DNA from: Myxacorys almedinensis A
GTDB lineage: Bacteria > Cyanobacteriota > Cyanobacteriia > Leptolyngbyales > Leptolyngbyaceae
Reading direction: 5' to 3'
DNA: 64,000 nt
Assembly (NCBI RefSeq): GCF_010091945.1
Contig: NZ_WVIE01000016.1
Coordinates: 1 to 64,000, forward strand
Positions 1-12,489 of this stretch are shown one piece after another (the stretch's first letter is position 1; the number at the start of each line of letters is the position of its first letter). The notes under the pieces are model-generated. The model saw only the letters and a list, made by a program, of their open reading frames with translations. It made no database searches and was not told where the DNA came from. The position numbers and the translations under genes are program-made.

Positions 1-541
1 GAAGCTTGGCGGGTTCCTGCACAGATACGGCTAGCTTCTGCCTCAGTTCGGCGCGAAACGCTTGGCGGTGCTGCGGGTTTTGTTTATCCTCCAGACTATA
101 CTTTGCCCAGAGGTAGACGTACTTTTTTTGTTTGAGAATCCTCCGCACTTGCATTCCACTCAAAGCAATTCCGGTGTTCTCTGCCAGATACACTGCGAGT
201 CGCTCTGCCGTCCATCTGCCCAACTCATAGCCCAACTCACTCGGTGATTGTTCCACCACTCGCATCAATTGCTCAATGTAGGCTGGAGTCGCTTTGCGAT
301 AGTTGCCCTCAGACCGGCCATCTCGAAGGCTCTCCAAGTCATCTGGGTTGCCTTCTACGCACCAGTGCGCCACACTGCGGTAGGAGCAGTTTAGAAAAGC
401 GCTGATCTCCTCATACGTTTTGCCATCGTTTCTCAGCAACAAGATCAACGCTCGCTGTCGGGTATGCCGATCTTCGCTCTCTCGAACTGCTTTTTGCAGG
501 TTCGCTTGCTGCATCTGACTCAAATAGTTTCGCACTGGCAT
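1..541 (-). CDS. IS630-family transposase, N-terminal part, runs off left edge
   Basis: Read on the minus strand, an open frame starts at ATG 541-539 and stays open for 180 codons to the window edge. The product begins MPVRNYLSQMQQANLQKAVR and contains a helix-turn-helix of the IS630/Tc1-mariner kind (TYEEISAFLNCSYRSVAHW), then a second winged-helix-like part (LGYELGRWTAERLAVYLAEN and MQVRRILKQKKYVYLW). The DDE catalytic part would lie left of base 1 and cannot be checked. The gene faces away from the FAAL-PKS gene that ends at 591, with only about 50 bp between, which is where the end of the element should be. IS630 elements insert at TA. Family call from motifs only. Confidence 0.8.
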   Translation of the reverse strand, partial: MPVRNYLSQMQQANLQKAVRESEDRHTRQRALILLLRNDGKTYEEISAFLNCSYRSVAHWCVEGNPDDLESLRDGRSEGNYRKATPAYIEQLMRVVEQSPSELGYELGRWTAERLAVYLAENTGIALSGMQVRRILKQKKYVYLWAKYSLEDKQNPQHRQAFRAELRQKLAVSVQEPAKL

Positions 542-597
542 AAAGTACTGACCAAGACGGCAGCTTTATTTTATGCAATTTAGCTGTTGTTTAGCTT
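1..597 (-). mobile_element. Partial IS630-family insertion sequence
   Basis: The transposase frame (1-541) and about 55 bp of upstream sequence form the visible end of an insertion element whose other end lies outside the window. A TA dinucleotide at 597-598 sits exactly where the neighbouring PKS frame stops resembling its family, and IS630 elements duplicate a TA on insertion. The terminal inverted repeat cannot be proven without the other end, so the boundary near 597 is an inference. Confidence 0.6.
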
Positions 598-3500
598 ACC
601 TGTAGCGGACGTTCCAGCCCCGCTAAATTGTTCTGCTCCTCCGCCTTCTTACTCACCGTGACTTCAACGGATGCTTCCTCCAACACCACATGAGCATTCG
701 TGCCACCAAATCCAAAGGAACTTACACCCGCAAACCGATTGCCAGATTCAACATTCCATGACTGTAGTGATGTTGGAATTGAAAAGGGAGTGCTTTGTAG
801 AGCAATCAGCGGATTGATCTGGTGCAAATGTAGTTGTGGCAGAATTTGGCGATGCTGTAACGCCAATACAGTTTTGATCAATCCTGCAATTCCAGCCGCC
901 GCTTCTAAATGACCAATATTGGCTTTGACAGACCCGATCGCACATCCCTGATTAGCAGAACGAGCTTGCAGCAAAACGGCTTTCAAAGACTCAACCTCAA
1001 TCGGATCTCCTAGAGACGTTCCCGTGCCGTGCGCTTCAACATAGCTAATCTGAGCGGGTTCGACTCCAGCCCGCACCAACGCCTGACGAATCACCGATTG
1101 TTGAGCGAGTCCATTCGGAGCAGTTAGCCCATTGCTGCGACCGTCCTCATTCACGGCTGAGCCTCGTAGAATCGCCAGCACGCGATCGCCCTCTCGCCTC
1201 GCTTCAGTCAATCGCTTCAGAACGACGACTCCACAGCCCGCGCTGCGGACATACCCATTTGCGGCAGCATCAAACGGCTTACACCGACCATCTGGAGCCA
1301 TCATGTTTGCTTTCGACAAGGCGATCGTCAACTGAGGATTGAGGATTAAATTCACACCACCTACGATCGCTACATCACAGTCTTGGCTGTGTAAGCTTTG
1401 GCTAGCTAAGTGAACGGCAACCAATGATGCAGAACATGCCGTATCTACCGCTAAACTCGGTCCGCGCAAATCCAGGAGGTAAGACAAACGGTTGGCTGCC
1501 ATACTGTGAGCATTACCTGTTCCGGCATAAGCATCGATCGCATCAGGACAACTGAACTGCTGTTGCGAATAATCACTGGAGGCAATACCGACAAATACTC
1601 CGGTTTGGCTTCCGGCTAACTGCTCAGGAGCATAGCCCGCATCTTCCAGTGCTTCCCAAGCCACCTCCATCAGTAGCCGATGTTGGGGGTCGATGCGAGC
1701 CGCTTCTCGTGGCGAAATTCCAAAAAAGTGAGGATCGAATTGATCGACATGATGCAAAAATCCTCCCCAGCGAGTGTTCATCTTGCCAACCGCATCAGAG
1801 TTTGGATCGTAGAAGTCGCCAGCATTCCATCGGGTTGACGGCACTTCTGCGATCGCATCAATGCCATTTTGGAGTAATTGCCAGAACTCGTCTAGATTAC
1901 TTGCACCCGGAAATCGGCAACTCATGCCAACAATGGCGATCGCGTCAGTTGCAGAGTGCGGCATTGCCGAGGATTGCTGAACGGTTCTAGCATCTACCCG
2001 TTCACCCGACAAGTAATCAGATAAGGCGGCGATCGAGGGGTAGTCATACGCCAGTGTGGGAGCGAGGCGGCAACCCAGCCAATCTTCCAATTCAGCGATT
2101 AAACCAACGGCTTCTCTCGATGCCAAACCATAATAAGCAAACGGCTGATCAACTTCGATTTCGCTAGGTTCAAGCTGTAGCGTTTGTGCCAGTCGAGCCA
2201 CTAGCCAATGTTGAATCGTTGCAACAGGTTGAGCGGGCTGAGGCGACGTGAGTGATCGCGGTACAGCCGTTAACGGTTGAGTGAAGGAATTAACGGTTTT
2301 GTTGCCAGGATTGAGTGTCCATTGGTGTACCGGATGGAGGCTGCCCGCCAGAAATTCCTTGCGGCAGGCATGGCGCTGGATTTTGCCGCTCGATGTTTTA
2401 GGAATGCTGCCCGTCTTGAGCAACAGCACAACCTCGACCGTCAAATCATGCTGTTCTGCTACCGCCTGACGAATGGTCGAAATCACAGCATCAAGATCTG
2501 CGTTCCGCAAATAGCTGCGCTCTAATTCATGCGCGATCGCCAGCCGCTCTTCCCCCGCCATTTCAACAGAAAACGCTGCTCCTGCACCCGGACGTAGGGC
2601 TGGATGGCTCGTTTCAACGGTTTGCTCAAGGTCTTGAGGATAGTAGTTGACTCCTCCAATGACGATCAAATCTTTCAGTCGTCCGGTGACAAACAACTGA
2701 CCTTCTCTCAAAAATCCCAAGTCTCCTGTTCGTAGAAATGGACCTTCCCCGGTGTCCTCTAAATAAGCCTGGAAGGTGCGATCGGTCTCCTCAGCACGTT
2801 GCCAATAGCCTTGAGCAATGCTAGGGCTAGCAACCCAAATTTCTCCCACTTGATCGGGCACACATCGGGTTCGCGTGTCGGGATGAACAATCGCGATCGT
2901 AGTGTCTAAAACAGCGCGACCAGAACTGACTAGCGTTCTGGCAGTGCGATCGCTGGTGGAAACTTCTCTAATGTAGTTTTGAGCGATCGACTCCGCTTCA
3001 ACGGTGCAAGTCGTGGGTGCGTCTTGCAGTCCCTTTCCTGAAACCATCAGCGTGGCTTCAGCCAGTCCATAGCAGGGATAGAGAAATTTTGCTTGAAAAC
3101 TAGAGGATTTGAAGGTTTCAGCAAACTGTTGCAGGGTTTCTGAACGAATCGGTTCAGCCCCATTGTAGGCAGTCCACCAACTGCTCAGATCCAGGGTTTT
3201 TCGTTGTTCGGGCGTAACCTTGCGGCTGCACAAATCGTAGGCAAAATTGGGACCGCCGCTATGGGTTGCTCGATAGCGAGAGATCGCTTCTAGCCATCGG
3301 ATGGGTCGTTGCAGAAACGAGACAGGAGGCATTAAATATCCTGGAAACCCGCTATACATGGGCTGGAGGATGCCATCAATCAATCCCATATCGTGAAAGC
3401 TCGGTAGCCAGGTAACCGATACACTGCTGGAACTCAAACCAAACGCTCGCTGAATGCAGGCAGAGTTGTGCAGCAAATTGCCGTGGCTAACCATCACCCC

Positions 3501-4067
3501 CTTGGGCGTTGCAGTAGAGCCAGAGGTGTATTGAAGAAACGCTAGCGTATTGCGGCTGATCGGGGTTGGCTGCCAGTCTTCGGCGTGTTGATCAGAAATT
3601 GTGTCGGTTGCCAGCCAGCGTAGGGCTGCTAGTTCTGGAGCATCACTAAACCAGTGATCTACCCCCGATCGAATGCTTGATGTAGTCAGCGCAATTGTTG
3701 CCTGGGAGTCAGCAAGGATTGCCTGGAGCCGATTTAGGTGTTGATTGCGGCGGGGTGGATAGGCTGGAACGGCAATCACATTGGCAAAGAGACATGCAAC
3801 AAATGCAGCAATAAAGTCCAACCCCGGTGGATACAGCAATAATGCTCGGCTACCCGATGAATTGAGCGACTGCAATTGAGCCGCGATCGCTCGCACTCGC
3901 CGATCAAAGTCCTGATACGTGATGCGAATTTCTTCAGTTTCTCCATCCACCAGAAATCCATAGGCAATCTGATGAGGTTGATGGATGGCTCGCGATCGCA
4001 CGATATCAACGAACGAAGCTTCCAGCAGGTTAGGTGAAGAATTGAGAAAAGCAGACATGGAATGCAC
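591..4067 (-). CDS. Fatty acyl-AMP ligase / acyl carrier / ketosynthase, truncated type I PKS
   Basis: Protein of 1158 residues. Residues about 1-600 are a fatty acyl-AMP ligase (FAAL): AMP-binding motif YTSGSTATPKGVMVSH near residue 180, YGLAEATLMVSG, TGDLGFLREGQLFVTGR, and a terminal lysine region SIPKTSSGKIQRHACR. A carrier domain follows near 660-740 with phosphopantetheine serine in YGLASREAVGL. A complete ketosynthase then runs from about 760 with DTACSASLVA (active Cys), EAHGTGTSLGDP and KANIGHLEAAAG (active His residues). The protein ends at ERPLQVS, exactly where related PKSs continue into a linker and acyltransferase, and the IS630 end lies there. Such proteins activate a free fatty acid and start a lipid-tailed polyketide/peptide. 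It is divergent from siderophore receptor genes, so a lipopeptide siderophore is the likely product; that is inference. Confidence 0.88.
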   Translation of the reverse strand: MHSMSAFLNSSPNLLEASFVDIVRSRAIHQPHQIAYGFLVDGETEEIRITYQDFDRRVRAIAAQLQSLNSSGSRALLLYPPGLDFIAAFVACLFANVIAVPAYPPRRNQHLNRLQAILADSQATIALTTSSIRSGVDHWFSDAPELAALRWLATDTISDQHAEDWQPTPISRNTLAFLQYTSGSTATPKGVMVSHGNLLHNSACIQRAFGLSSSSVSVTWLPSFHDMGLIDGILQPMYSGFPGYLMPPVSFLQRPIRWLEAISRYRATHSGGPNFAYDLCSRKVTPEQRKTLDLSSWWTAYNGAEPIRSETLQQFAETFKSSSFQAKFLYPCYGLAEATLMVSGKGLQDAPTTCTVEAESIAQNYIREVSTSDRTARTLVSSGRAVLDTTIAIVHPDTRTRCVPDQVGEIWVASPSIAQGYWQRAEETDRTFQAYLEDTGEGPFLRTGDLGFLREGQLFVTGRLKDLIVIGGVNYYPQDLEQTVETSHPALRPGAGAAFSVEMAGEERLAIAHELERSYLRNADLDAVISTIRQAVAEQHDLTVEVVLLLKTGSIPKTSSGKIQRHACRKEFLAGSLHPVHQWTLNPGNKTVNSFTQPLTAVPRSLTSPQPAQPVATIQHWLVARLAQTLQLEPSEIEVDQPFAYYGLASREAVGLIAELEDWLGCRLAPTLAYDYPSIAALSDYLSGERVDARTVQQSSAMPHSATDAIAIVGMSCRFPGASNLDEFWQLLQNGIDAIAEVPSTRWNAGDFYDPNSDAVGKMNTRWGGFLHHVDQFDPHFFGISPREAARIDPQHRLLMEVAWEALEDAGYAPEQLAGSQTGVFVGIASSDYSQQQFSCPDAIDAYAGTGNAHSMAANRLSYLLDLRGPSLAVDTACSASLVAVHLASQSLHSQDCDVAIVGGVNLILNPQLTIALSKANMMAPDGRCKPFDAAANGYVRSAGCGVVVLKRLTEARREGDRVLAILRGSAVNEDGRSNGLTAPNGLAQQSVIRQALVRAGVEPAQISYVEAHGTGTSLGDPIEVESLKAVLLQARSANQGCAIGSVKANIGHLEAAAGIAGLIKTVLALQHRQILPQLHLHQINPLIALQSTPFSIPTSLQSWNVESGNRFAGVSSFGFGGTNAHVVLEEASVEVTVSKKAEEQNNLAGLERPLQVS

Positions 4068-4632: not shown

Positions 4633-7284
4633 ATGCAGATGACCTGGATTATTTCATTGGGAATGGAGGAACCTGAATTGAAGCTACGAACATTACTTTT
4701 TGGAGTGTGGCTCACAAGCTCAACGGTTTTGCTAATGACTCAGGCAGTTTTAGCGGAAATAGAGCAGCGAGACAAATCAGTAATTTCAGAAGTTCCCCGA
4801 ATTGGTGAGCTAAAGCAGCCTTCGACTAGTGCTGCAAGTTTGTTGGCTCAAGACCCTAGTAGAATTGGCGTGGCGCAAGTGACCAGAGTACGGATTAACC
4901 CAACGCCAACTGGGATCGAGGTAGTTTTAGAAACCGCAGAGGGTGCAGCCCTGCAAGCCACGACACGAGTTGAGGGCAACACCGCGATCGCTGACATTCC
5001 CAATGCTGTATTAGCTCTGCCAGAAGGCAAGGAGTTTCGTGCAGAAAACCCTGGCGACAGCATCACAGCGGTTACAGTCACCCAGTTGAATGCAAATCGA
5101 GTGCAGGTGAGTGTCACGGGATCTGCCGCGATCGCACAAGTGCAATCTAGACCCAGTGGATTAGTGCTGGGGATCACACCAGCGACTGAAGCGCCCGTTT
5201 CTGGAGCAGAAGCACCCGAAGAAGAACTAGCAGAAGAACCCGAAGAAGAAGAAGTTGTCGTCACAGCAACGCGCACAGAAGAAACAGTAGAGAACGTGCC
5301 GCGCAGTGTGACGGTGATTACTCGCCAACAAATTGAGGAACAACGGGCACTCAATAACAACCTGGGAGACATTCTTGGCAAACTCGTCCCCGGTTTTGGT
5401 CCTCCAACGTTGACGACTCGAAATCGCGGTCAGAATCTGCGGGGGCGTCCACCTGCTGTGTTGATCGATGGAGTGCCCCAGACCACCAACAACCGATTTT
5501 TTACAGAACTCCGTACCATTGATCCCTCTGCGGTTGAACGGGTTGAAGTGATTCGTGGACCCAGTGCCATTTTCGGGGCAGATGCAACTGGGGGAATCAT
5601 CAATATCATCACGGGCAGACCCACCAAGGACTTTACATCGCGGGTGAGCTTAGGAACCAATGCTGCACTGGGCAAACTGCAAGGCGATAGTTTTGGCTTT
5701 CTGGGTCAATACGGCATTTCAGGAACACAAGGCATTTTTGATTATCGGTTTGATCTGTCGTTGTCCTCTTCAGGAAGCTTCTTTGATGCGGAGGGCGATC
5801 GCATCCCATTTGAAGATATCGACGATACAGAATCGATCAATGCGTTGGCAAAAATCGGCGTTAATATTGATGAGCAGCAGCGGTTGCAGGTGAGCGTCAA
5901 TCACTTCCGCGATCGTCGAGACAGTGACTGCATTACCGATCCGATTGTGTTAGCCCTTCCGGGCAGACAAAAAGCCCGTGTCTTATGCGTTGGGGGACGG
6001 GAACTTGATAACGACCCAACCCGACGCAATACAGTTGCGAGCCTAAACTACAGCCATAAGAATATCTTTGGCAGTCAGCTTGACACTCAGTTGTACTATC
6101 GCAACATCTTCTTTAGTAACGACCTTGCTGACCTGCGACCGCTGCGTCAACTCGTGTTCCAAAACCGACTGGAAGCCGAAAACTGGGGAGGTAGGCTGCA
6201 AGTTCGCACGCCTTTATCGCAGTCAGCCAACGTCCTTTGGGGGGTTGATTACAACAAAGAAGAGAATGGTGTTCCTCTGGATGTGATTGATCTGCTGACC
6301 TACAATGCCACGGGACGACGGGTTGCCCGTGTGATTGGGACACGCGACAACATTCCCCCTTACAGTATTGATAACTTAGGGGTATTTGCTCAATTGCAGT
6401 GGGAGGTCAGTCCGCAGTGGGCGCTGAGCGGGGGAGCGCGTTACAACCGGATCGGATTTGATGTTGAGGACTACACTACTGTATTTACTGACCGACAAAT
6501 TCAAGGCGGGTCGAACAATTTTGACGATGTAGTGTTTAATGCGGGCGTGGTGTATCAACCAACCGACACCATCAGTCTGTTTGCCAACTTTGCTCAAGGG
6601 TTCTCGCTGCCAGATTTTGGACGAGTGCTGAATGAGCCGCGATTTGTCAGCGTCAACAACAGCTTTCAGGAGACGGAAGCGCAGAAAGTTGATAGTTTTG
6701 AAGTGGGAGTTCGGGGCAATTGGAATTCGCTACAAGCGACGCTCTCTGGGTTCTACAGCCGCTCCAAGTTAGGCAGTGCGCTGGTAGTAGGGCCCAATGG
6801 GATTACGCAGCAAGTTCGTGCCCCACAGCGCAACTATGGAGTTGAAGCGACACTCGATTGGCAAGCCAGCCGTGCCTGGAGACTGGGAGGAACAATTACC
6901 TGGAACGAGGGAGAAAATAGTCTCAATGATAATGACAATTACCTGGCACTCAGTAGTATTGAAGTTCAGCCGCTAAAGCTCTCTGCTTACATCGAGAACG
7001 AAACCCTACCCGGTTGGCGAAATCGCCTCCAACTACTGCATGTGGGGAACCGCGATCGCGCCTTTAATGATGGCGTAGATCGATTTAGAATTAGTGGCTT
7101 CACTACCTTAGATCTGATCAGCAGTGTTCGGCTTGGGCAGGGAACATTGTCCTTGGGCGTTCAGAACTTGTTGAACGAGCAATATTTCCCAATCACCTCG
7201 CAGGAGCGCACTGGATTTTTTGAAACTCAGAATTTTGCGGCTCCCGGCAGAACGATTAGCCTGCTTTACACGATTGAATTTTGA
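4633..7284 (+). CDS. TonB-dependent siderophore receptor with N-terminal AMIN domain
   Basis: Outer-membrane receptor of 883 residues that would import ferric siderophore using TonB energy. After a signal peptide (hydrophobic stretch ending TQAVLA) comes an AMIN domain (about residues 78-180), a low-complexity acidic linker (EEELAEEPEEEEV), a TonB-box-like VVVTATRTEE, a plug domain (VPRSVTVITRQQIEEQ to GADATGGIINIITGRP) and a 22-strand-type barrel ending in a C-terminal phenylalanine (LLYTIEF). AMIN-plug-barrel order is typical of cyanobacterial siderophore receptors. The start is uncertain: ATG at 4633 or 4663; neither has a clear ribosome site. It is followed after 22 bp by a siderophore-binding lipoprotein gene. 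Confidence 0.93.
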   Translation: MQMTWIISLGMEEPELKLRTLLFGVWLTSSTVLLMTQAVLAEIEQRDKSVISEVPRIGELKQPSTSAASLLAQDPSRIGVAQVTRVRINPTPTGIEVVLETAEGAALQATTRVEGNTAIADIPNAVLALPEGKEFRAENPGDSITAVTVTQLNANRVQVSVTGSAAIAQVQSRPSGLVLGITPATEAPVSGAEAPEEELAEEPEEEEVVVTATRTEETVENVPRSVTVITRQQIEEQRALNNNLGDILGKLVPGFGPPTLTTRNRGQNLRGRPPAVLIDGVPQTTNNRFFTELRTIDPSAVERVEVIRGPSAIFGADATGGIINIITGRPTKDFTSRVSLGTNAALGKLQGDSFGFLGQYGISGTQGIFDYRFDLSLSSSGSFFDAEGDRIPFEDIDDTESINALAKIGVNIDEQQRLQVSVNHFRDRRDSDCITDPIVLALPGRQKARVLCVGGRELDNDPTRRNTVASLNYSHKNIFGSQLDTQLYYRNIFFSNDLADLRPLRQLVFQNRLEAENWGGRLQVRTPLSQSANVLWGVDYNKEENGVPLDVIDLLTYNATGRRVARVIGTRDNIPPYSIDNLGVFAQLQWEVSPQWALSGGARYNRIGFDVEDYTTVFTDRQIQGGSNNFDDVVFNAGVVYQPTDTISLFANFAQGFSLPDFGRVLNEPRFVSVNNSFQETEAQKVDSFEVGVRGNWNSLQATLSGFYSRSKLGSALVVGPNGITQQVRAPQRNYGVEATLDWQASRAWRLGGTITWNEGENSLNDNDNYLALSSIEVQPLKLSAYIENETLPGWRNRLQLLHVGNRDRAFNDGVDRFRISGFTTLDLISSVRLGQGTLSLGVQNLLNEQYFPITSQERTGFFETQNFAAPGRTISLLYTIEF

Positions 7285-7306
7285 CCCCTTCTGACCCTTG
7301 AGGATC

Positions 7307-8362
7307 ATGAATCTAACTGCTCTGTGGAGTGTCTTAAACCGCTCATGGCATTTACTAATATCCCACCGCGATCGCTGGCAAAAATCGCTGAGGAAACGAT
7401 CGCGTTCACTCCAGTTCTTCGCGCTCATCGGGTTAACCGTTTTGGTGGTTTCATCCTGTAATCAAGCTCCTCAAACCGGAGCCGTTGACCGCACTGCTCC
7501 ATCGTCTCAATCAACTACTGCTGAACGGGTTGTGAAACATGCGCTTGGCGAAACCAAAGTTCCTGCCAACCCCCAACGAGTGGTGGTTTTGGATAATGCC
7601 GTTCTCGACACCGCGATCACGCTAGGGGTGAAACCCGTCGGTGCTGCCCTCTATCCAGGAACAACGTCCTATCTGGGCGACAAGACGCAAGGCATTGAGA
7701 CGGTTGGCAGTTCTCCCGCTCCACCCAATCTGGAAAAAATCGTATCGTTAAAGCCTGATCTGATTCTTGGCATCGCCATTGTTCACAAGCAACTTTACGA
7801 CCAACTTTCGCAAATTGCGCCAACAGTTCTAGCCGAGGATAGCGGTCGAGAAGGCAACTGGAAACAGCACATGACGCTATATGCGGAGGCGCTGGGCAAA
7901 ACGGAGGTTGCTAAGAACCTGCTCAATGATTACAACCAGCAAGTCAATCAACTCAAGCAGCGGTTAGGAGAGCAACTCACGAAAACCAGTGTATCGCTCG
8001 TTGCTGGATTCCAAGACCGACTTGGGTTCTACACGACAGGCAGTTTTCCAGGTTCGATCTTGCAAGATGTTGGGTTGCCTCGCCCCCCTGCTCAAGAAAA
8101 AGCAGATATCTTTGCTAGCCAGGTGTCGCGTGAAGATTTCAAGAGCATTAATGGCGATGTAATTTTCTTGATTCGGAATGCGATCGATCCGAACAACACG
8201 ATCGTCGATCAGTTCAAACAAGATCCCCTGTTCTCGCAGTTAGACGCAGTGAAACAAAATCGTGTGTATGTAGTCGATGGCAAAGTGTGGACTGTGGGTC
8301 GCAGTATCCTCGCCGCCAATCGTGTTTTAGATGATTTGTCTAACTATCTGGTCAAGCAATGA
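7307..8362 (+). CDS. Iron-siderophore ABC transporter substrate-binding lipoprotein (FecB/FhuD type)
   Basis: Periplasmic binding protein, about 351 residues. The frame also has an upstream TTG, but ATG 7307 is preceded by GAGG at a good distance and is chosen. The N-terminus is basic, then hydrophobic, with lipobox VVSSC, so the mature protein should be lipid-anchored. The fold signature follows: ANPQRVVVLDNAVLDTAITLGVKPVGAA, the segment VSLKPDLILGI, and the closing QNRVYVVDGKVW. It lies 22 bp after the TonB receptor and 3 bp before the MFS gene, so co-transcription is likely. It would receive ferric siderophore from the receptor. A matching intact permease/ATPase is not in the window; only a decayed FecCD permease lies nearby. 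Confidence 0.92.
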   Translation: MNLTALWSVLNRSWHLLISHRDRWQKSLRKRSRSLQFFALIGLTVLVVSSCNQAPQTGAVDRTAPSSQSTTAERVVKHALGETKVPANPQRVVVLDNAVLDTAITLGVKPVGAALYPGTTSYLGDKTQGIETVGSSPAPPNLEKIVSLKPDLILGIAIVHKQLYDQLSQIAPTVLAEDSGREGNWKQHMTLYAEALGKTEVAKNLLNDYNQQVNQLKQRLGEQLTKTSVSLVAGFQDRLGFYTTGSFPGSILQDVGLPRPPAQEKADIFASQVSREDFKSINGDVIFLIRNAIDPNNTIVDQFKQDPLFSQLDAVKQNRVYVVDGKVWTVGRSILAANRVLDDLSNYLVKQ

Positions 8363-8365
8363 CCC

Positions 8366-9706
8366 ATGCCCCCAGACACTCAGCCCACTAGCTTACGCAC
8401 CTTCTTGATCATCTGGAGCGGTCAAATGGCATCGATCCTTGGCTCTGAGATGACCAACTTCGCGATCACCATTTGGGCGTGGGAGCAAACGGGTCAAGCA
8501 ACTCCGTTATCGCTGCTCTTCTTCTTCACGTACACTCCCCGGATCATTGCAGCATCTTTTGCCGGATTAATTGTCGATCGTGGCAACCGCAAGCAGCTAA
8601 TGATCGCAGGAGATACGGTCGCTGGACTTTCTACGATCGCGATTCTGCTGTTGTTTTTGAGCAATCATCTCCAAATCTGGCATCTCTACGTGACAACGGC
8701 GATGAATGGCTTGTTTGGGTATCTCCAAAATCTGGCGTACTCCGCCTCAATGACGATGATTGTTCCCAAACAGCATTACACCCGTGCGACTGCCATGAGT
8801 TCCTACGTTACCTACTCTGGCTCCTATATTATTGCACCTGCTTTAGCAGGAGTGTTGTACTATACGATCGGTTTAACAGGTGTTTTGGCGATCGACTTAA
8901 TGACATTTGTGATGGCTATCAGCACCATCTTGTGCGTATCGATTCCGCAACCCACTCGAAAATCTACTAGCATCGCCCATCAAACTCTCTGGCAACAATT
9001 CACGTTTGGCTTTCGCTATTTACTCAAGCGTCCCAGTCTATTGGCAATTTTGATCTTTTGGCTGAGTTTTAACTTAGTCGATACTGTGAGTTTAGCCCTC
9101 GGTCCAGCCATGATTCTGGCTCGGAGTAGCAATGATGCCACTGTATTAGCCACTGTTCGATCGGCGATCGGAGTTGGAGGAATTGTGGGTGCGATCGCAC
9201 TAAGTGTTTGGGGTGGTTCTCAGCGTCGCATTCATGGCTTATTGCTGGGTACCGCACTCACCAGCCTGAGTAAGATGATTATTGGCTTGGGTCGTGTACC
9301 TCTAAGTTGGATGATTGCCGGATTTGGAGCCGGGGTCTTTGCTCCTGCGATTGATAGCTCCAATCAAGCCATCTGGCTATCCAAAGTAGAACCAGATGTG
9401 CAGGGTCGCGTGTTTGCCTCTCGCTACTTGATTGCACAGATCACATCCCCACTCGGATTAGCGATCGCAGGACCGTTAGCCGATTATGTGTTTGAACCTG
9501 CTATGAGTTCAAATGGTCGTTTGTCGAGCATTTTTGGTGGTGTCTTTGGCATCGGCGCAGGGGCTGGAATGGCTTTACAGTACACAATTTTTTGTTTCTG
9601 CGGTGCCTTGATTGGGTTAGGTGGATATGCCTTTCCGAGCCTGCGGGATGTAGAAACGATCGTGCCAGACCATGACGCAGAGCAGGGACAAGGAGGTAGG
9701 GTGTAG
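8366..9706 (+). CDS. MFS transporter, probable siderophore exporter
   Basis: Integral membrane protein of 446 residues with about 12 hydrophobic segments. The first loop carries the MFS signature in the form GLIVDRGNRKQLMIAGD between helices 2 and 3, as in the EntS/enterobactin-exporter-like branch. The gene starts 3 bp after the siderophore-binding protein gene. Such MFS proteins in siderophore loci usually export the newly made siderophore, but export versus uptake cannot be decided from sequence. The ATG at 8366 overlaps no other element and the next gene follows after 44 bp. Confidence 0.85.
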   Translation: MPPDTQPTSLRTFLIIWSGQMASILGSEMTNFAITIWAWEQTGQATPLSLLFFFTYTPRIIAASFAGLIVDRGNRKQLMIAGDTVAGLSTIAILLLFLSNHLQIWHLYVTTAMNGLFGYLQNLAYSASMTMIVPKQHYTRATAMSSYVTYSGSYIIAPALAGVLYYTIGLTGVLAIDLMTFVMAISTILCVSIPQPTRKSTSIAHQTLWQQFTFGFRYLLKRPSLLAILIFWLSFNLVDTVSLALGPAMILARSSNDATVLATVRSAIGVGGIVGAIALSVWGGSQRRIHGLLLGTALTSLSKMIIGLGRVPLSWMIAGFGAGVFAPAIDSSNQAIWLSKVEPDVQGRVFASRYLIAQITSPLGLAIAGPLADYVFEPAMSSNGRLSSIFGGVFGIGAGAGMALQYTIFCFCGALIGLGGYAFPSLRDVETIVPDHDAEQGQGGRV

Positions 9707-9750
9707 GAGGTTCCCTTGTTCATTCCAACTTAAAACGCATAGCTCCTGTC

Positions 9751-10755
9751 ATGATGCCAATTGATAATTCACCCTCCTCTTGCCAGTTCTGCTCTGTGAT
9801 TTCTAAAACCAGCGGCGAAGATCCGATCGGCTCAGTCGAACCGAGTGACTACTGGCTGGTGATGGAAATGCCGCTTCCGTGGGTGCCTCAGCGTTGGTTA
9901 GAGAATCCAACGTTGCAGCCAATTCTGATGCAAATTCGGAGTATGAGAATTGAGCATGAAATCAAGTTAAGAGTCATGGCGATCGCGCCCGATCATCAGT
10001 ACTCTCAACCCGGATTGACCCGTGTGCTGTTTTACCGCCGTCCTGCACGGTTGTTTGCTCAGTTTGAGAAACAGGAATTTCTGATTCCCGATGCAGAAGT
10101 GGGTCACTTCACCACGACGCTCCTGAAGCATTTGCTTGATCAGCAATCTTATGACCTTTCACAGTTCGATCGCTATCAGCAAGACACAAGCCACATCCAT
10201 GAGTTGATGATCTGCACCCACGGCAATGTGGATGTTGCGTGTGCCCGGTTTGGCTATCCCATTTATCAAACGTTACGCCAAGACTATGCTGCTGTGTCCA
10301 ATGGGCAGTTGCGCGTATGGCGAGTCAGCCATTTTGGTGGACATCAATTTGCCCCAACCTTGGTAGATTTACCAGAAGGACGCTACTGGGGACATTTAGA
10401 ACCGGAGATGTTAGATCTGTTGGTTCATCGGAACGGCTCTGTTGCTGGATTGCGTCCCTTCTATCGCGGCTGGGCAGGACTCGGCAAGTTTGAGCAAATC
10501 GCTGAGCGAGAAATTTGGATGCAAGAAGGCTGGGATTGGCTTACTTATGAAAAATCGGGGTGCGTTCTAGCGATCGATGAAAGCAATGAATTGTGGGCTG
10601 ACGTGCAGATTGATTTTGTGAGGCGCAATCTCCCCTGTGCCTACAAAGCTAGAGTCGAGGTCAATGGTTTTGTGATGACTGCTCATGATTCTGGTAAAAC
10701 TCCATCCTTCCAAGAAGTCAAGCAATATCACGTTACCCACCTCGTGCGAGTTTAA
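9751..10755 (+). CDS. Sucrase/ferredoxin-like family protein
   Basis: Protein of 334 residues of the thioredoxin-fold 'sucraseferredoxin-like' family. Visible marks are an N-terminal SSCQFCS cysteine pair, the central CTHGNVDVACARFGYPIY, and RVSHFGGHQFAPTLVDLP followed by a GRYWGHL segment. In related proteins these cysteines and histidines bind a [2Fe-2S] cluster. The family is found often in cyanobacterial siderophore loci; a role in reducing or handling ferric siderophore is plausible but is inference. A second ATG lies one codon after the first (9751/9754). It is the last gene of the run that starts with the TonB receptor. Confidence 0.82.
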   Translation: MMPIDNSPSSCQFCSVISKTSGEDPIGSVEPSDYWLVMEMPLPWVPQRWLENPTLQPILMQIRSMRIEHEIKLRVMAIAPDHQYSQPGLTRVLFYRRPARLFAQFEKQEFLIPDAEVGHFTTTLLKHLLDQQSYDLSQFDRYQQDTSHIHELMICTHGNVDVACARFGYPIYQTLRQDYAAVSNGQLRVWRVSHFGGHQFAPTLVDLPEGRYWGHLEPEMLDLLVHRNGSVAGLRPFYRGWAGLGKFEQIAEREIWMQEGWDWLTYEKSGCVLAIDESNELWADVQIDFVRRNLPCAYKARVEVNGFVMTAHDSGKTPSFQEVKQYHVTHLVRV

Positions 10756-10797: not shown

Positions 10798-11425
10798 TCA
10801 TCCATTGCGATTTCGATAGAGCAGATACAGAAAGCAGGGAGCACCGACAACTGCGGTAATCACTCCACAAGGTAACTCAGTTGGAGCAAACAATACACGA
10901 CCCAGCAAATCTGCCATCGTTACAATTAGGCTACCGATGAGAGCCGCTGTTGGAAACAGTCCTTCGTGGGTGGTGGGTCCTACCAGTTGACGAGCAAGAT
11001 GGGGAGCCATGAGTCCAACAAAGCTGATCGTGCCTGCAACCGCCACACTCGCTCCGGTTAGCGCAACACTAATCAACAGCCCCGCTGTCACTCCACTCGA
11101 CTGCCTAACCCGTATACAATATCGCTCCCTAGATTGAGCAGATTTAATTCACGAGAAAGCAGCCAAGCAAACGGTAGAACAACAAGTAACCAAGGAAGTA
11201 ATGCCCCAACGTGTTCCCAGCGACAGCCGTAGACGCTACCTGCTAACCAAATTAAAGCTTGGCTGACATTGAGAATATTACCAAAAGTAATCATCAGTGT
11301 GGTCAGTGCAGACGCGATCGCGCTAATAGCAACCCCGACTAAAATTAGCCGAGTTGGACTACTGCCCTGATCCCACGCCAGCAAATACACAAGCAACGCC
11401 GCAGCTAACGCTCCAACAAACGCTC
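10798..11425 (-). pseudogene. FecCD-type iron-siderophore permease, frameshifted and 5'-truncated
   Basis: Two minus-strand frames together encode the C-terminal half of a FecCD/BtuC permease. The upstream piece reads GALAAALLVYLLAWDQGSS through [19 protein letters not shown] and stops; the downstream piece continues [19 protein letters not shown] and [21 protein letters not shown] to the normal C-terminus. Joining them needs one extra base near 11092-11096 (TG instead of TGG restores EW-TAGLL), so a 1-nt deletion is likely. The N-terminal half is missing and the coding sequence runs directly into an AraC-type gene near 11425. It must be non-functional. Confidence 0.85.
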
Positions 11426-12004
11426 CAGATACATTTGCTTGATCACACCCTGATAAGGACAATCTAGCATTTGCTGTAAAGCAAGACGCATGGCAGGTGT
11501 AATTGTGCGGACTGGCGAAAACGGGAGCGCTTCATCTCGTGCTAGCATCCGCTGTACCTCAGACGGCAAAACATCTAATTGATCACCGATAAATGCCTGC
11601 AACTGTTCTGGTTGCAAATGAATATCAACTTCTATAGTCGTTGCGTAAGCTAGCCCTTCAAAATGACCACCCGGCGAAACTAGACCCGCGAGGAAATGCT
11701 GACCTTGACTGATCTGCACTCCATTCGGGCATCGAAACCCTGATGAGAGGTTAAACATCCATTCTAGATAGCCAGTTTCTCCGGGCGGGATGCAATTGAC
11801 AACCAAATCATCCTTGAGTTAATAGTGATGAAAAGTCAAATCAATTCCATTGCGGAGTTCAATGTCCCGCTTATAGCCTTTGCCTAACAGCAACGGACAT
11901 TCAGCAATGCGATCGCTTGCATCCTGTGGATCAGCTTGATGTGCCTGTTGACGACTAACCTGCCAAAGGTCATCACAAACTATGTCAGACAGTACACTCG
12001 CCAT
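11423..12004 (-). pseudogene. AraC-family regulator, internal stop and C-terminal loss
   Basis: From ATG 12004 the minus strand encodes an AraC/PchR-like N-terminal domain (MASVLSDIVCDD..., GKGYKRDIELRNGIDL, FHHY), then an in-frame TAA at 11821-11819, after which the same frame continues as LKDDLVVNCIPPGETGYLEWMF and ITPAMRLALQQMLDCPYQGVIKQMYLE. A CAA-to-TAA change explains the stop. After MYLE the homology ends and FecCD sequence starts in another frame, so the two DNA-binding helix-turn-helix motifs are gone. PchR-like regulators of this type activate siderophore uptake genes in cyanobacteria; this one is dead. Confidence 0.82.
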
Positions 12005-12047
12005 GTTGTAAGTTTTGCTGGAAATATCATTAAGGTACAATAGCTCA

Positions 12048-12086
12048 ACTCAACCACTATGCACTGAAAGTGCATAGTGGTTGAGT
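12048..12086. repeat. Perfect 18-bp inverted repeat with 3-nt loop
   Basis: ACTCAACCACTATGCACT at 12048-12065 is exactly complementary to 12069-12086, with loop GAA. It lies 44 bp upstream of the AraC pseudogene start, between that gene and the divergent broken binding-protein gene. There is no T-run on either side, so it is not a classical terminator. It could be an operator, an IS200/IS605-type end, or a repeat family of this genome. Confidence 0.9.
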
Positions 12087-12182
12087 ATCCTGGCGATTTT
12101 AGGTATGGGAAAGTCCAAAGAGACGTTATGAATGCTACCCTGAATGACCTAGAAAACCACCTTGTCAACACTTTATGAAGCG

Positions 12183-12489
12183 ATGAAAAAACAGCGATAT
12201 CGGCTAGCGTTTTTATTCGTGGCTTTTTCTTTGTTAATCCTTTTTCTTTGTTAATCATTGCAGCTTGCTCTCAAGCTACTATCTCGAAACCTCATCCCTC
12301 CCTGAAGTCTTTTGAATGTCAAGTCATTCAGCATAGCTCTGGTAAAACCTGTGTCCCACTCAATCCCCAGCGAATTGTTGCCTTGTCACCTGAAACTTCG
12401 CTCGATCCTCTGATAGCACTCGGTATCAAACCGATTGGTTTTGCATCTTACAACAACAAAGGGCAAGAAGTTCACTATGGGGTATCTTT
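12183..12489 (+). pseudogene. Siderophore-binding lipoprotein (FhuD-like), N-terminal remnant
   Basis: ATG 12183 starts a signal peptide (MKKQRYRLAFLFVAFSLLI) that is thrown out of frame by a 17-bp tandem duplication. Past the duplication, another frame reads IIAACSQATISKPHP (lipobox AAC) and CQVIQHSSGKTCVPLNPQR, IVALSPETSLDPLIALGIKP, IGFASYNNKGQEVHYGVSF, which is the start of a ferric-siderophore binding protein. Homology then ends near 12487 and DUF1636 coding sequence follows. About two thirds of the gene is missing. Confidence 0.8.
12223..12256 (+). repeat. 17-bp tandem duplication inside signal-peptide coding sequence
   Basis: CTTTTTCTTTGTTAATC occurs at 12223-12239 and again at 12240-12256. 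Removing one copy restores a continuous frame MKKQRYRLAFLFVAFSLLI-IAACS. It is therefore the frameshifting lesion of the binding-protein pseudogene. Confidence 0.92.

Follow-up and report, generated by a model that had tools for sequence, protein, structure and literature searches.

The window, i.e. the whole stretch of 64,000 nucleotides from Myxacorys almedinensis A that was analysed here, begins inside an IS630 element that directly adjoins a FAAL-ACP-KS gene of the type I polyketide synthase (PKS) kind. The question is whether this gene is the remnant of a longer synthase or a new starter module without an acyltransferase (AT), and where the rest of the synthase is to be found if the former applies. 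The features at the left end of the window are as follows.

2-541, minus strand: IS630 transposase, N-terminal 180 aa, interrupted at window base 1, where the contig ends (ORF; NF033545, 3.8e-31)
574-596, no strand: IS630 terminal inverted repeat (25 bp with the TA; TAAGCTAAACAACAGCTAAATTGCA vs TAAGCTGCTCAACATCTAGATTGCA at the end of contig C8, 20/25 identical)
597-598, no strand: TA target dinucleotide, second and third base of the final PKS codon (GTA, Val; sequence and reading frame)
591-4067, minus strand: truncated FAAL-ACP-KS, 5' part of a type I PKS gene, 1158 aa (ORF, domain profiles, homologue comparison)

The FAAL-ACP-KS gene and its homologues

The domains called in the frame at 591-4067 are a FAAL (residues 29-422 and a C-terminal part), an ACP (621-686) and a KS (708-1081), and the 3.5 kb of the frame contain neither a stop nor a frameshift. 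The serine of the ACP is preserved, and so are the KS motifs DTACSAS (875), HGTGT (1013) and NIGHLE (1050), which bears out an earlier note on this DNA that had described the KS as complete with its catalytic residues. FAAL, ACP and catalytically equipped KS are thus present in one chain, as is typical of the FAAL-ACP-KS-AT type I modular PKSs; the KS-AT linker and the AT that belong after the KS are not. The KAsynt_C_assoc linker profile is matched only at positions 2-60 of 111, no AT stands behind this point, and the protein ends about 24 residues past the KS core, within the KS-AT linker. In other words, the gene is a remnant of a FAAL-ACP-KS-AT type PKS and no working member of that group.

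The end of the gene reads ...ERP-L-Q-GTA(V)-AGC(S)-TAA, and the TA of the valine codon is the TA at window 597-598. Since everything past this dinucleotide belongs to the IS, the valine is the last residue of the PKS, and the serine and the stop codon come from the element. The earlier note had placed the protein end, ERPLQVS, exactly at the start of the IS630 element with its TA, and both the coordinates and the frame were right.

The region after the KS was compared in all those FAAL-ACP-KS loci that had been fetched. They amount to 27 distinct homologous loci, 26 of which could be judged, the remaining one (L039) running off its contig. The AT begins 41-84 residues past the KS core in 26/26 judgeable homologues, including L049, which has a frame break behind the KS and the AT 56 codons on. 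The stops directly after the KS in L049 and L113 were considered as natural ends and rejected, as the AT lies 51-56 codons further in both; they look like frame breaks. No natural end at the position of the window copy was seen among the 26 judgeable homologues, and this outcome of a check proposed in the earlier note favours truncation. Because all 26 run on into an AT directly after the KS, the window copy is truncated, i.e. the supposition that an originally longer type I PKS is cut short at the IS630 element has been upheld. The Leptolyngbyaceae CRU_2_3 MAG (L052, best segment 66%) was examined for a closer homologue without interruption, but its contig stops within the KS, and no sequence was assignable as the continuation.

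The IS630 element and the missing part of the synthase

The element carries a transposase with a DDE domain, the N half matching NF033545 as listed above and the C half, on contig C8, matching PF13358 (4.3e-26), and it has terminal inverted repeats. Against residues 1-180 of IS630 transposases from cyanobacteria, the window half shows 57-59% identity. The terminal AGCT...AGCT repeat beside a TA is common to full-length relatives in Gloeothece and Nostoc, and the match of the C7 and C8 end repeats has a binomial P of about 1e-8 at p=0.25; the IS end in the window is therefore real. IS630/Tc1 elements prefer TA targets (ISY100 of Synechocystis; PMC2170065, PMC6400869). Here a TA is found at both borders of the element, as a putative target duplication; the sequences on its two sides do not add up to a single gene. 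AGCT-type terminal repeats with a TA at both ends are shared with the relatives in Gloeothece PCC 7822 and on Nostoc C057 plasmids and with ISY100 (PMC2170065), and the transposase halves are 54-61% identical to those of the Gloeothece and Nostoc plasmid elements. Unlike in these relatives, the transposase has an internal TGA, which stands in frame in the C half right after the Glu of LIELV, and about 48 bp of its middle are unassembled. Judged by its sequence, the transposase is probably inactive. A search for relatives of the IS in viral contigs found none.

The assembly consists of 85 contigs with 4.96 Mb and is rated 100% complete. Window base 1 is also the first base of contig C7, so it is the assembly that cuts the IS. 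In a DDE_3 search, the right end of contig C8 was found to carry the C half of this transposase type. Alignment to full-length relatives places the end of the window half at residue 180 and the start of the C8 half at residue 198, so that, split codons counted, about 48 bp are missing between them. The N half occurs once in the genome, the only other match being one 36% partial, and the C8 half is likewise found a single time if a 26-base match on C4 is disregarded; both sit at contig ends. The simplest inference, which is drawn from the contig ends and not from reads, is one IS630 element with a small assembly gap, and this would make C8 and C7 neighbours. With further unassembled IS copies in the strain, the halves might come from two different elements. 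A synteny test of the join, using relatives of the ABC exporter beside the C8 IS end, found only distant copies (57-61%). We note that the IS630 halves suggest how two contigs of a draft genome connect.

The DDE_3 end at the start of contig C84 (C84:1-228) was also tried as the other IS half and rejected, as it shows 36-45% identity over a short stretch and has no AGCT-TA end. This contig (C84:1-228 = L121:1-228) begins inside the transposase of another IS630 subgroup, which suggests that the assembly is interrupted by IS630 elements at more than one point.

Beyond the IS half on C8 there is an ABC exporter gene, whose stop lies 58 bases from the IS and which closes an intact metallophore locus; no PKS is found there. 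The joined flanks of the IS read ERPLQVSPSVIVRQNNPKIKGIVI-stop, not a KS-AT linker. The 4.96-Mb assembly contains neither an orphan linker nor an orphan AT or DH. When the region behind the KS of the C8 synthase served as query, the only matches were assigned regions on C8 and C23 and a free-standing AT on C66; this AT, together with the two on C8 and the single one on C23, makes up the full set of ATs in the genome. The C66 AT, a 308-aa frame that is FabD by its size, is the only free-standing AT found; C7 has none. Since no unassigned linker, AT or DH exists in the assembly, the rest of the window PKS is either lost or lies in unassembled sequence. The earlier note had proposed to look to the left of base 1 for the other IS end with a PKS linker and AT continuing in frame behind it; that end turned out to lie on C8 with an ABC exporter beyond it, so a gene that was merely split is not supported. 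Its alternative, i.e. that the rest of the pathway was rebuilt as separate genes, is not supported either, the only free-standing AT being the one on C66.

We consider it probable that the window gene is the FAAL-ACP-KS 5' remnant left after an IS630 insertion and a deletion or rearrangement that removed the distal part, in a locus that is decaying. The type I PKS would originally have begun the chain of a probable metallophore. At the TA within the KS-AT linker the gene meets the IS630 element, from which its stop codon comes, and in the assembly the distal part from the AT on is missing, with the matching IS630 half located at the C8 end beside the ABC exporter. A single IS would then join C8 and C7, with the unassembled gap inside it, and either a deletion next to the IS or recombination between two copies of IS630 may have taken out the rest of this second PKS. 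The protein, having no AT or downstream carrier in cis, would be unable to elongate a chain, which is why the locus is taken to be decaying. As the AT and half of the KS-AT linker are missing, what is left of the protein most likely serves no function. The open 3.5-kb frame speaks against this reading in so far as it implies either a recent truncation or continuing selection.

A complete PKS could instead have been merely interrupted by the IS, with its second part just beyond the element in sequence absent from the draft. The position of the window at a contig end inside an IS, and the frequency with which drafts break in such elements, agree with this, but the matching IS half at the C8 end is followed by an ABC exporter, and several kb of unique sequence would have to be missing from an assembly that is rated complete and yet has no orphan linker, AT or DH. 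We regard such a split as unlikely. It is quite unlikely, too, that the IS met a PKS which had been cut short before, or which came to its end soon after the linker, and replaced only the last codons. The flank-joined frame does close 18 codons after ERPLQV; however, the short extension is unlike a linker, an open frame of 18 codons is common by chance, and no homologue ends naturally there.

The window locus and the intact locus on contig C8

The genes that follow the truncated synthase in the window are listed below.

4633-7284, plus strand: AMIN-domain TonB-dependent receptor (PF00593, PF07715, PF11741; 46% to the C8 receptor)
7298-8362, plus strand: FecB-type periplasmic metallophore-binding protein (PF01497; 53% to the C8 copy)
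8366-9706, plus strand: MFS transporter (PF07690; 61% to the C8 copy)
9751-10755, plus strand: sucrase/ferredoxin-like protein, Suc_Fer (PF06999; 47% to the C8 copy)
10803-11383, minus strand: FecC/FecD permease remnants with broken frames (ORFs and C8 comparison)
11429-11701, minus strand: AraC-type regulator fragment (residues 124-216 of the C8 AraC-type protein, 30%)
12317-12439, plus strand: fragment of a second FecB-type gene (residues 29-68 of C8 FecB, 49%)

A TonB receptor, a periplasmic binding protein and a transporter thus stand beside the synthase, as in metallophore loci, and the order TonB-FecB-MFS-Suc_Fer at 4633-10755 is the same as on C8 (46-61% identity). The fragments of FecC/FecD, AraC and FecB at 10803-12439 show the decay of the locus.

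The C8 locus encodes three synthases: FAAL-ACP-KS-AT-DH (1707 aa), luciferase-like monooxygenase/DH/MT/KR/ACP (1552 aa) and a long KS-AT-NRPS gene whose domains were read by eye. Behind them come TonB, FecB, MFS, Suc_Fer, FecC, FecD and other transport genes, whose names rest on inspection by eye and on sequence matches. In G033, which is a genome from the same family, the locus recurs at 82-98% identity. The first synthase (92% identical copy in G033) has the same FAAL-ACP-KS order as the window copy at 56-57% identity and likewise adjoins divergently oriented TonB-FecB-MFS-Suc_Fer genes. The difference lies after the KS: KAsynt_C_assoc is matched at 3-107 in the C8 paralogue, which runs on into AT and DH and is followed by the two further PKS/NRPS genes, whereas the window copy stops.

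In the FAAL tree, which is poorly resolved, C8 pairs with G033 (100/100) and has no sister relation to the window FAAL; the latter takes a position without resolution, its nearest row being a Leptolyngbyaceae MAG (64%). A recent tandem duplication of the C8 PKS is not favoured, given the 57% identity and the lack of a sister relation in this poorly resolved tree. By sequence comparison, the window locus looks like a second, separately derived metallophore locus and not a recent copy, and we would class it as an ordinary case, in which a second metallophore locus is degenerating and survives as a remnant. Cyanobacterial lipopeptides and micacocidin provide known cases of a FAAL fused to a PKS (PMC11837247). 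The micacocidin-type enzyme, compared here through this review and general knowledge, shares the FAAL-PKS fusion and an apparent metallophore context; the window copy differs from it in being truncated and having no AT.

It is very improbable that the shortened protein is still in use, loading an acyl starter that its KS condenses with a carrier served by an AT of the C8 synthases. The intact reading frame, KS motifs and ACP serine, together with the intact metallophore-type synthase in the same genome, would suit such a role, but the KS-AT linker is halved, the neighbouring genes are fragmentary and the C8 pathway has its own FAAL-ACP-KS-AT. Hardly any probability is therefore left for an AT-less starter module that was kept to feed the C8 metallophore synthase and would diversify its acyl chain.

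The remnant reading cautions against taking the window gene for a new AT-less starter module. It provides a clear example of a secondary-metabolite locus that is being lost while the genome keeps a related intact one, and the order of loss would run from the IS630 insertion through the disappearance of the distal synthase to the decay of the transport genes. The case is one of well defined but ordinary genome decay, and no open question of the field hinges on this gene.

Some features of the C8 locus are described here in their own right. The second synthase (L122:6690-11348, minus strand) starts with its luciferase-like (LLM) monooxygenase domain, to which DH, MT, KR and ACP are joined. In the third synthase (L122:1-6693 = C8:72000-78692, minus strand), the gene of which is 93% identical in G033, the AT has GYGVGE for GHSxG and lacks about 100 residues, i.e. 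it is probably inactive. The end of C8 (L142:10886-19403) carries an AraC-type regulator, a second AMIN-TonB receptor, an AmpG-like MFS and two ABC exporters, a gene set that we take to be similar to the transport genes in yersiniabactin-type loci. The last ABC gene has a further copy, at 61% identity, on C36:905-2662.
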